Source of the DNA: Bacteroidales bacterium
GTDB taxonomy: Bacteria > Bacteroidota > Bacteroidia > Bacteroidales > WCHB1-69
NCBI GenBank assembly: GCA_024400875.1
Contig: JAKSMB010000002.1
Coordinates: 62,001-126,000 of the forward strand
Direction: 5' to 3'
Length of the DNA: 64,000 bases
Position numbers and translations under genes: made by a program. The notes below the pieces were generated by a model that ran no database searches, had not been told where the DNA came from, and saw only the letters and a program-made list of their open reading frames with translations. Positions 1 to 3,267 of the stretch are shown here, piece by piece. Position 1 is the first letter of the stretch. Each line of letters starts with the position of its first letter.

Positions 1-990
1 GTTTACACACGGATTCGGGTAAACGGAAAGTTTTGTCATGGCGTGTTCTTGAATGCCCACAGGGTCGGCTACAGCCACTACTGGTGTGGTCCAGGTGCTT
101 ACCCAGTTTTCGTCCATGTCGGCACAACCGTAACCACCCATTTTGATGTAGTCGCCGTTGTGGATGTACTCGTTGCTTACGATGTCGGCATACTGGCCAT
201 TGTGGTTGTACACAATGTAGTCGGGAGCGATTGCCAGACTGTCTTGCCCATGAAGGAAAACAAGGTCGGTGAGGAAGCCGCCGGATTCTGAGAAGCTGAG
301 GCGAAGGTCGGCATTGCAGATGTCGCTCAACATGGTGGCCACGGTCACAGAGTCAGCGTCGAAACGGTAACCCCATGCGTAAGCGTTCGGTTCGTTGCAC
401 CAGTTGCCGATGAAGATGGCCTCGTTGTTGCCGCTGCCAATCCAATATTGGATGTCGCTGGCTGCAATGGTGGCATCTACGTTTTGAGGTTGTGGGTTAG
501 GATCAGAAACTGGAGTGACAGGGGTAGTCCAAGCCATCCAACTCCAGTCGTCAGCAAAGGTGGCAGTCATGTAGCTGCCCCATTTGATGATGTCGCCATC
601 CACAACTTCTTGGGAAGCGTAACCCAATTGTGCGGTCAAACCATTGATGATGTACATTGGAAAATCTCCGTTCATGGAGAGGTCGTACTGAGCATCTTGA
701 TAGTAGAGGTCGCTAACCGTACCGCCGTCACCATCGTAAGAAAAACGGCTGTCGGCTGCTGCGATGGAATCCATCAGATCCATTACGAGCATGGCATCGT
801 CGTTGAAACGGTAACCCCAAGCGAATGCTACGTTGCTTTCGTCCCAGCTAACGATGAAAACGACTTCGTTGCTGCCGTTGCCGATCCAATATTGAATGTC
901 ACTGGCTGCAATGGTGGAGTCAGGAGATTGCGCTTTTGATGAAAATAAGCAAGCGCAGAAAATAGATAAAAACAGTAATGCTTTTTTCAT
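1..990 (-). CDS. T9SS-sorted surface protein with two tandem domains, under a B12 riboswitch (partial, 3' end beyond window)
   Basis: An open frame runs from ATG at 990 to the left edge without a stop (330 codons). Residues 1-21 are a signal peptide (MKKALLFLSI...SKAQ). Two homologous domains follow, at about 25-156 and 171-302. Both contain TIAASDIQYWIG.G.NE, then an AWGYRF block, a D-rich stretch and a W..W.TPV ending. From about residue 318, LSVYPNPC is the start of a type A T9SS sorting domain, so the mature protein is probably surface-attached or released. I do not recognise the domain by name. A cobalamin riboswitch lies in its leader, so a role in corrinoid capture is inferred by analogy with riboswitch-controlled surface B12-binding proteins (BtuG, BtuH) of Bacteroides. 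Those are lipoproteins; this one is not. Genes further downstream (btuB or TonB receptor?) lie outside the window. Confidence 0.85.
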   Translation of the reverse strand, partial: MKKALLFLSIFCACLFSSKAQSPDSTIAASDIQYWIGNGSNEVVFIVSWDESNVAFAWGYRFNDDAMLVMDLMDSIAAADSRFSYDGDGGTVSDLYYQDAQYDLSMNGDFPMYIINGLTAQLGYASQEVVDGDIIKWGSYMTATFADDWSWMAWTTPVTPVSDPNPQPQNVDATIAASDIQYWIGSGNNEAIFIGNWCNEPNAYAWGYRFDADSVTVATMLSDICNADLRLSFSESGGFLTDLVFLHGQDSLAIAPDYIVYNHNGQYADIVSNEYIHNGDYIKMGGYGCADMDENWVSTWTTPVVAVADPVGIQEHAMTKLSVYPNPCVN

Positions 991-1119
991 AATTCTTTGA
1001 GTTTTAGTTTGTTATTATTAATTTGATAGTTGTTCCGCAGTTGAGCAACGGAAAAAATAGACAAACGAAACCCAAGGAATCTTCGCTTGCATAGCCTACC
1101 TCCCGAAGCTGTTTTGCAA

Positions 1120-1290
1120 TGATGATATGGCAGGTCTTCTGACTCGTTTCGCCCATAGACGCCTTCCCATCGAATGAACGACAGTGACATCAAGTCTATG
1201 GCCTCGTGAAACTTACAGCAGCGGGTACTGTTCAGGATTCACACCTGATTCCCTCTCAAGATTCCGAAAAATCTTTCACCATAAAATCGG
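1120..1290 (-). ncRNA. Cobalamin (B12) riboswitch
   Basis: Read on the minus strand, the leader contains GGGAATCAGGTGTGAATCC, then AACAGTACCCGCTGCTGTAAG (the B12-box core GCCACTG-type region is degenerate), then CACTG, GGGAAGGC and GAGTCAGAAGACCTGCC. These are the conserved blocks of the cobalamin riboswitch in the expected order. The element starts only a few bases after a TAnnTTTG promoter at 1294-1301 and ends about 130 bases before the ATG at 990. It should repress the surface-protein gene when adenosyl- or other cobalamins are plentiful. An open frame crossing this stretch is not a gene. Confidence 0.93.
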
Positions 1291-1293
1291 CGG

Positions 1294-1301
1294 CAAAAAT
1301 A
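1294..1301 (-). promoter_or_regulatory. -7 promoter element of the riboswitch transcript
   Basis: TATTTTTG followed by C on the minus strand matches the Bacteroidota TAnnTTTG element. A start about 6 bases downstream would place the riboswitch at the very 5' end of the RNA. Confidence 0.7.
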
Positions 1302-1327: not shown

Positions 1328-1453
1328 GGCTTTTGGCTTTTGGCTTTTGGCTTTTAGCTTTTAGCTTTTAGCTTTTGGCTTTTAGCTTTTAGCTTTTGGC
1401 TTTTAGCCTTTAGCCTTTAGCCTACTGCTTACCGCTTACCGCCTACCGCCTTT
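1328..1453. repeat. Heptanucleotide tandem array, 18 copies
   Basis: Eighteen consecutive 7-base units fill this intergenic stretch. The first eleven alternate GGCTTTT and AGCTTTT. The last seven drift to AGCCTTT, AGCCTAC, TGCTTAC, CGCTTAC, CGCCTAC and CGCCTTT. The period is exact throughout. The array sits between the B12 riboswitch promoter and the promoter of the C69 dipeptidase gene (TATATTTG at 1466-1473). A second array with the same period and the GCTTAC.GCTTAC core occurs at 45037-45078. Confidence 0.95.
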
Positions 1454-1515: not shown

Positions 1516-3267
1516 ATGAAAAAGACATTCTTTTTAACCCTGTTGATGGGTTTGCTGACAATCAGCACAACGATGGCTTGCACCAATTTCATTGTTACGA
1601 AGGGTGCCAGCAAAGACGGCTCTTGTTTCCTGACCTATGCCGCCGACTCACATTCCCTTTATGGTGAACTTTATTATCATCCAGCCAAAGACTATCCCGC
1701 TGGCACGATGATGGACATCGTGGAATGGGATACGGGTAAGTTGCTCGGCCAAATTCCTCAGGTAGCGCACACCTATTCTGTAATTGGCAACATGAACGAA
1801 TGGCAGCTCGCCATTGGTGAAACAACCTACGGTGGCATTGAAATGCTCGAACAAGGTCAAGGTATGATCGACTACGGTTCCCTGATCTACATCGCACTTC
1901 AACGTTCCAAGAACGCTCGCGAGGCTATCAAAGTTATTGCTGACCTGATGGCTACCTACGGCTATGCTTCCGAAGGCGAATCCTTCTCTATCGTTGATCC
2001 GAACGAAGCTTGGATTATGGAAATCATTGGCAAGGGCGAGAAAATGCTCGACGCTAAAGGTAAGGTCGTTAAAGGTTGGAGCAACGGCGCCGTTTGGGTG
2101 GCTCGTCGCATCCCGGATGGCTACGTAAGCGGTCACGCTAACCAAGCTCGTATCACAACCTTCCCGTTGCGCGATGGTAAGACTTCCATCACCAGCAAGG
2201 AACTCGACAAGATCTTCTTGCCTTCTGTGGAAACGGTTTACTCTGAGGATGTTATCTCTTTCGCTCGTCTGAAAGGTCTTTATCCAAAGGATACCAAGGC
2301 TGCGCCAGATGCTCAGTTCAGCTTCTGCGACGCTTATGCTCCTATCAACTTCGGTGCTGCTCGTGGCTGCGAAGCTCGCGTTTGGGCTTTCTACAACCGC
2401 GTAAACCCTGCTGAGGCTGCTCAATACGAAGATTATGCTCGTGGCGACAACCTCGCTCACCGCTTCCCATTGTGGTTCAAACCGGCCGACAAAAACAAAA
2501 TCGATGCTCAATTTATGATGGCCGCTATGCGCGATCATTATGAAGGTACTACCATGGACATGACAAAAGATCTCGGCGCTGGCCCTTACCAATGCCCTTA
2601 TCGTTGGCGTCCTATGACATGGTCTATCGATGGTAAAAATTATATCCATGAACGTGCTACTGCTACCCAACAAACGGGTTTCTCTTTCGTAGCTCAATGC
2701 CGCAGCTGGCTCCCTAACTGGTTTGGTGGCGTTTTCTGGTTCAGCGTTGACGATGCTGCCAGCACCTGCTACGTACCTATGTTCTGTGGTATCAACCAAA
2801 TCCCTATGGAATATGCTGAAGGCAATGGCTCTATGGTTGAATACTCCAACACCGCTGCTTTCTGGACCTTCACCAAAGTTAGCAACTTCGTGTACTCTCG
2901 CTATAGCGATATGATTAAACATGTTAATGATAAACAAGCTTACTGGGAAGGTAAGTTCGTGAAGGAAATCAACGATATGGGTAGCAAGATGAAAGATCTT
3001 TGCGAAAAGAACCCTGAACAAGCTCGTAAAGCCTTGAATGATTATTCTGTTAACGCTGCTAAGAACGTTTGCGCCGACTGGAACGACCTCTTCATCTACC
3101 TCTTGGTAAAATACAACGATGGTAATGTTAAGAAAGAAGAAAATGGCAAGTTCAAAGTTACCAACACCAAGGTTCCTCAATGTGAATTCCCAGACCAACC
3201 ACGCTACCGTGACGAGTGGTATAGAATGATTGTTAAAGATTGTGGCAAAAATATCCAAGCTAAATAG
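1516..3267 (+). CDS. Secreted C69 family dipeptidase
   Basis: This is a 583-residue N-terminal-nucleophile hydrolase of peptidase family C69 (U34, PepD-like), which cleaves dipeptides. The ATG at 1516 is chosen over an upstream in-frame TTG because it opens a clean signal peptide (MKKTFFLTLL...TTMA). Cys22, directly after the signal (ACTNFIVTKGAS), is the expected catalytic nucleophile, freed by processing. The GETTYGG block around residue 100 and SIVDPNEAWIMEI are typical of the family. It is transcribed alone, with its own promoter and a strong terminator at 3286-3318. The product is probably periplasmic or outer-membrane associated and fits peptide feeding. A long open frame on the opposite strand (1648-3297) looks like a coding shadow. 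Confidence 0.92.
   Translation: MKKTFFLTLLMGLLTISTTMACTNFIVTKGASKDGSCFLTYAADSHSLYGELYYHPAKDYPAGTMMDIVEWDTGKLLGQIPQVAHTYSVIGNMNEWQLAIGETTYGGIEMLEQGQGMIDYGSLIYIALQRSKNAREAIKVIADLMATYGYASEGESFSIVDPNEAWIMEIIGKGEKMLDAKGKVVKGWSNGAVWVARRIPDGYVSGHANQARITTFPLRDGKTSITSKELDKIFLPSVETVYSEDVISFARLKGLYPKDTKAAPDAQFSFCDAYAPINFGAARGCEARVWAFYNRVNPAEAAQYEDYARGDNLAHRFPLWFKPADKNKIDAQFMMAAMRDHYEGTTMDMTKDLGAGPYQCPYRWRPMTWSIDGKNYIHERATATQQTGFSFVAQCRSWLPNWFGGVFWFSVDDAASTCYVPMFCGINQIPMEYAEGNGSMVEYSNTAAFWTFTKVSNFVYSRYSDMIKHVNDKQAYWEGKFVKEINDMGSKMKDLCEKNPEQARKALNDYSVNAAKNVCADWNDLFIYLLVKYNDGNVKKEENGKFKVTNTKVPQCEFPDQPRYRDEWYRMIVKDCGKNIQAK

Follow-up and report, generated by a model that had tools for sequence, protein, structure and literature searches.

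The gene at the start of the window, which is the whole 64,000-nucleotide stretch of DNA analysed here (G000:C4:62001-126000, from a Bacteroidales genome of 1.13 Mb that is 51% complete), probably codes for a protein that captures corrinoid (vitamin B12), is delivered by the type IX secretion system (T9SS) and is built of transcobalamin-β-like modules. Two independent kinds of evidence agree on corrinoid capture, the genomic context (linkage to riboswitches and association with Btu-type proteins) and the predicted fold. The riboswitch, the sorting domain, the fold of the modelled domain, the family-wide linkage and the operons and fusions with Btu-type proteins were all established by computation. 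A preliminary description of the same DNA had suggested a T9SS-borne corrinoid-capture protein, and the predicted fold, the riboswitch linkage and the Btu-gene company of relatives support this suggestion; from these we infer binding. The features of the locus are as follows.

1..990, minus strand: open reading frame (ORF) of the secreted two-domain protein, with 330 of 388 codons within the window, running off at base 1
928..990, minus strand: putative signal peptide (MKKALLFLSIFCACLFSSKAQ), about residues 1–21, ending in AQ, from inspection of the translation by eye
493..921, minus strand: transcobalamin-β-like domain 1, residues 24–166
55..477, minus strand: transcobalamin-β-like domain 2, residues 172–312, 42% identical to domain 1, profile score 156 bits
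1..24, minus strand: first 8 residues of a T9SS type-A sorting domain, from TIGR04183 on the full protein
991..1111, minus strand: 121-base leader from aptamer to start codon, presumed expression platform, assigned from the sequence
1112..1298, minus strand: cobalamin riboswitch aptamer RF00174, cmscan 100.3 bits, E 6.9e-24, model positions 1–189 of 189
1294..1301, minus strand: TAnnTTTG motif (TATTTTTG), candidate promoter, sole exact match in the first 1500 minus-strand bases

With the neighbouring stretch added, the whole gene is L004:17824-18990 on the minus strand and encodes 388 residues, the remainder lying below G000:C4:62001. The preliminary description had read it as a secreted protein with two repeats of about 130 residues and the start of a T9SS sorting domain, and both readings hold. 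The repeats are about 137 residues each and align with 42% identity over 136 columns (E 7e-34). The sorting domain, of which eight residues lie in the window, is complete beyond it at residues 323–388 (TIGR04183 E 2.3e-12, 46.7 bits, cut-off 23; PF18962 also matches, E 1e-10), which makes the protein a probable T9SS type-A cargo. The linker is Pro-rich (TPVTPVSDPNPQPQNV), and no canonical lipobox was seen by eye in the putative signal peptide. Signal peptide, two β domains and sorting domain make up the 388 residues, leaving no N-terminal α/α toroid. Neither a DUF5074-type propeller nor DUF4465 matches the protein at E<=0.5. A BtuH-like domain is also absent, and the second copy in the genome, P0003, carries one.

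Structures were modelled for repeat 1 and for the BtuH-like domain. In Foldseek, the best fold matches of the repeat 1 model are to the β domain of animal B12 carriers, above all others, with E 0.03 and probability 1.00 for the best match. The PDB contains an entry, 5np4, whose title describes the β domain of human transcobalamin with cyanocobalamin bound. The Pfam family DUF4430, which we take to be the transcobalamin-like clade of the SLBB superfamily, is visible in relatives as well as through the model: loci L042 and L037 score 27.1 and 24.8 bits (cut-off 23.8), and 11 of 62 domain copies match at E<=6e-5. The domain, called unrecognised in the preliminary description, is recognisable; its predicted fold, and the Pfam family in relatives, are those of the β domain of B12 carriers and not of a family with an unrelated proven ligand. 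Matches to the Rubisco small subunit, lectin, EspG, ribosomal S16, DUF6383 and DUF3244 were weak or under cut-off and were dropped.

The RF00174 aptamer lies upstream of the domain gene on the same strand, full length and, at 100.3 bits, above the gathering score of 31.5 bits, confirming the B12 riboswitch noted earlier and assigning the gene to a cobalamin riboswitch regulon. The exact TAnnTTTG motif at 1301-1294, presumably a Bacteroidota-type promoter element, was likewise found where it had been reported. Its spacing of about 7 bases from the riboswitch is only roughly right, because the motif reaches into the initial, unpaired part of the RF00174 match and the first paired riboswitch base, 1290, is 4 bases beyond the motif. 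The leader at 991..1111 has an RNA fold z-score of -1.42, which indicates no strong structure.

Linkage of the domain to B12 riboswitches extends well beyond the window. We searched 60 genomes (this one, 35 of the same genus and 24 of the same order) and found the domain in 35: this one, 32 of the genus and two order-mates (G047 and G057). The 119 domain matches were grouped into 55 clusters, some of which share one long ORF (e.g. two clusters at G002:C27), and a cluster was called linked when a same-strand riboswitch lay upstream within 6 kb. By this measure 51 of the 55 are linked, the largest distance being 4.7 kb. Most distances are 170–360 bases (first gene) or about 1.2–1.6 kb (second gene, behind btuG where checked). 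Within the genus 49 of 53 clusters are linked, and the riboswitch density predicts 0.17. A pattern scan of named genomes gave 79 loci, covering the best 80 of 123 relatives, and 80 of 85 domain ORFs are linked there; one G029 gene is interrupted by a stop and enters the count as a pair of ORFs (L080; also L109). The two samples overlap and their counts cannot be treated as independent, since many named-genome loci are the same contigs as those of the genus and order genomes. The named relatives are mainly uncultured Bacteroidales or Bacteroidetes, and the labels of many give the rumen, the gut of other ruminants or horse faeces as their source. Outside the genus, 16 genes from 15 genomes of 11 genera were examined, and 15 of them are linked, with the riboswitch at 111–5793 bases, including G487, which came from a btuG search and is near a btu operon by choice. 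Linkage is thus nearly universal in all three samples, far from the rare association that would have spoken against corrinoid capture.

Ten cases over the three samples are unlinked, and six of these are contig or sequence ends. The four unlinked clusters are G009:C65 and G031:C12, at contig ends, G000:C7, whose match (E 6.6e-4) is probably not the domain, and G023:C35, a real exception. Eight of the 85 ORFs were unlinked at first. Three are at a sequence end; in L124, L126 and L152 an Infernal riboswitch overlaps the start of an over-long ORF, so that they count as linked; neither L097, which is the G023:C35 gene again, nor L163 has a riboswitch. For the sixteenth gene outside the genus, in G304, the contig ends about 1.5 kb upstream. 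Two domain genes, L163:4197-8927 and L060:8298-9815, showed no riboswitch despite ample upstream DNA. One genome of 3.0 Mb, G629, holds twelve cobalamin riboswitches, and in L130, L150 and L115 riboswitches lead giant ORFs of 2151–2383 residues that carry the domain. The domain is rare outside the genus, occurring in 8 of 395 genomes of the phylum (this one included) and in 6 of 121 genomes of one Bacteroidales family.

The genome itself has three RF00174 riboswitches. The one on contig C10 leads P0004, a BtuG-like lipoprotein (DUF5074 E 1.7e-10; BtuG1 chain 8blw_B E 3.4e-81), and directly after it comes P0003 (486 residues), with the domain once, a second, BtuH-like domain and a T9SS tail. 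The third (L005:9435-9608) directly precedes an anaerobic ribonucleotide reductase (L005:9693-11801). There are 37 T9SS sorting-domain matches in the genome, and only the two in domain proteins sit behind a B12 riboswitch. A BtuB-like receptor (G000:C1:191542-193512, L230:7456-9516; match to 8blw_A, BtuB1, E 4.4e-145) lies downstream of unrelated housekeeping genes on contig C1, which has no B12 riboswitch.

In relatives, the domain gene keeps close company with Btu-type genes. The order riboswitch, btuB, btuG, domain gene is found in L153 (bacterium P3) and L123, whose receptors have TIGR01779 (TonB-B12) as best NCBIfam match, below cut-off; the L153 receptor matches BtuB1 of B. theta at 1.6e-113. 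In L101 the riboswitch is followed by the domain gene, a gene for a BtuH-like, T9SS-tailed protein, btuG and a gene for a periplasmic binding protein (Peripla_BP_2). L078 encodes a fusion of the domain with a DUF5074 propeller (E 1.5e-113). In other families of the class, four loci (L178, L180, L182 and L183) have, in this order, a riboswitch, a btuB-sized gene, btuG, a gene of about 400 residues and a domain gene; inspection of this last gene by eye suggested a propeller-like portion and a tail resembling that of T9SS cargo. The BtuH-like domain at L006:10649-11326 has no Pfam match, and its model matches BtuH2 and the H domain of BtuG1. Nineteen separate genes of this domain adjoin or lie near domain genes, and 63 of 115 distinct relatives carry it within the same protein. 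A crude count of PNP motifs finds T9SS tails in 85 of the 115; of the remaining 30, several run into contig ends or show an altered motif, and the sorting-domain profile itself covered few proteins.

The operons and fusions bear on where the protein acts. It might work away from its own transporter, released or on vesicles, trapping corrinoid remotely or against competitors. T9SS cargo can be either released or attached, and the window gene does stand alone under its riboswitch; vesicles bearing BtuJ are also described as delivering B12 (PMC12751083, in part). We consider such remote trapping unlikely, because relatives in btuB-btuG operons, or fused to BtuG-like propellers, point instead to hand-off at the cell.

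Copy number bears on the binding unit. Among the 115 distinct proteins, some of them cut by contig ends, two copies are commonest (44), and three occur in 28, five in 11 and one in 14. The preliminary description suggested that each repeat may bind one corrinoid. It is also possible, and to us rather doubtful, that two tandem β domains clamp opposite faces of a single B12, with the repeat pair as the binding unit. The predominance of pairs suits a clamp, and so does the BtuH-like domain, a possible partner, in 8 of the 14 single-copy proteins; transcobalamin itself grips B12 from both sides with two domains (PMC1796856 and PMC4947154, both in part). However, the odd numbers are common (though some ORFs are truncated as noted), the Pro-rich linker suits separate beads, and the title of 5np4 implies that a lone β domain can bind. 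The number of corrinoids per protein is likewise something we infer.

For the corrinoid-capture protein proposed here, the course of events would be the following. When cobalamin is scarce, the riboswitch would permit expression of the gene. The signal peptide would take the protein over the inner membrane and the type IX system over the outer membrane, presumably attaching it to the surface rather than releasing it. Outside the cell, the two β-grasp domains, with the predicted lid fold of transcobalamin and intrinsic factor, would bind a corrinoid, which may then be handed on to the lipoprotein BtuG and the transporter BtuB, whose genes lie at other places in the genome.

Several observations weigh against corrinoid capture. 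The Foldseek search of the repeat 1 model gave no match at E<=0.001, and 3u7z, the fold match that comes after the B12 carriers, bears the title of a putative metal-binding protein. Against DUF4430 the window protein scores 19.0 bits, under the Pfam cut-off of 23.8; with domain 1 by itself nothing matches at E<=0.01, and the DUF4430 search of this genome yields nothing, so that a plain Pfam look-up would miss the relation. PDB sequence searches with phmmer found no relative of the domain, just sorting-domain and chance matches, and a profile of the 62 domain copies gave one match, at E 0.5. The β domain of transcobalamin works with an α toroid, which the window protein lacks. The domain is missing from 3 of the 35 same-genus genomes and 22 of the 24 order-mates, which makes it accessory. 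No btu gene adjoins the window gene in the locus examined, where it stands alone under its own riboswitch, and the downstream gene is probably convergent, taking the plus-strand one of two overlapping ORFs. The expectation that a B12 transport gene would be nearby thus fails for this gene; it holds for the second copy, directly after the riboswitch-led BtuG gene, and for the relatives in btuB-btuG operons, and the BtuB-like receptor is present elsewhere in the genome. A rival reading is a B12-regulated protein that does not bind B12: its domain would bind another surface protein, a glycan or a metal, and B12 shortage would call for it on other grounds, as may hold for the anaerobic ribonucleotide reductase of this genome. 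One of the three B12 riboswitches in the genome precedes the ribonucleotide reductase, not a transport gene, and 3u7z ranks first among the fold matches other than B12 carriers. We regard such a non-binder as quite improbable, because B12 carriers head the fold matches and the accompanying proteins (BtuG, BtuB, the BtuH-like and periplasmic binding proteins) look like B12 handlers.

The window protein resembles several known systems in part. With the transcobalamin-like SLBB clade (DUF4430; the β domain of transcobalamin, intrinsic factor and haptocorrin) it shares the predicted fold and secretion, whereas its family is from Bacteroidota, has 1–5 copies, a T9SS tail and a B12 riboswitch, and lacks the α toroid. 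B12 scavenging has been predicted for bacterial members of that clade (PMC1796856, in part). The list of clade members in the available portion of that 2007 paper has low-GC Gram-positives, planctomycetes and euryarchaea, not Bacteroidetes. Like the surface lipoproteins BtuG and BtuH of Bacteroides, the protein is under B12 riboswitch control and presumably at the surface, and its relatives share their operons; unlike them, it has no propeller, BtuH-like domain or evident lipid anchor. BtuK of B. thetaiotaomicron (BT_1486/1487), compared by description only, is a lipoprotein from a B12 riboswitch operon. The BtuJ/DUF4465 jelly-roll binders share the extracellular B12 capture proposed here and differ in fold. 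We take IPR026444 to be the T9SS sorting domain. This C-terminal targeting domain is carried by 229 of 824 DUF4465 proteins, and BtuK1 is reported to bind cobalamin (PMC12751083, in part). T9SS delivery of B12 binders is therefore not new as such, the DUF4465 family being already published in the same paper. In the literature searched, which excluded most subscription journals and bioRxiv preprints, we found transcobalamin-like domains described neither for Bacteroidota nor for T9SS cargo. The element for which we found no published precedent is the tandem transcobalamin-β-like module as Bacteroidota T9SS cargo under B12 riboswitches.

The domain, to which no name had been assigned in this protein, thus gains a testable function, and a bacterial B12 catcher is tied by predicted fold to human transcobalamin and intrinsic factor. 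Surface B12 catchers would widen from lipoproteins (BtuG, BtuH and BtuK) and DUF4465 proteins to T9SS-borne β-grasp strings. Tentatively, the family may be a modular counterpart of transcobalamin: T9SS-delivered, interchangeable B12 modules (transcobalamin-β-like, BtuH-like and BtuG-like propeller), in which the β-grasp module closes one corrinoid face and a neighbour the other, as in intrinsic factor, with the β module of these gut bacteria sharing descent with that of the animal carriers. If so, the same lid would be used by host and microbe competing for the same vitamin.

The DNA that separates the riboswitch promoter from the divergent gene contains a tandem array at window positions 1329-1421, in which a 7-base unit (consensus GCTTTTA) occurs 13 times; 4.6 copies of GCCTACC come next. 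The divergent neighbour, at 1516-3267 on the plus strand, is a family C69 peptidase (PF03577 E 5.5e-64) with a signal-like N-terminus.
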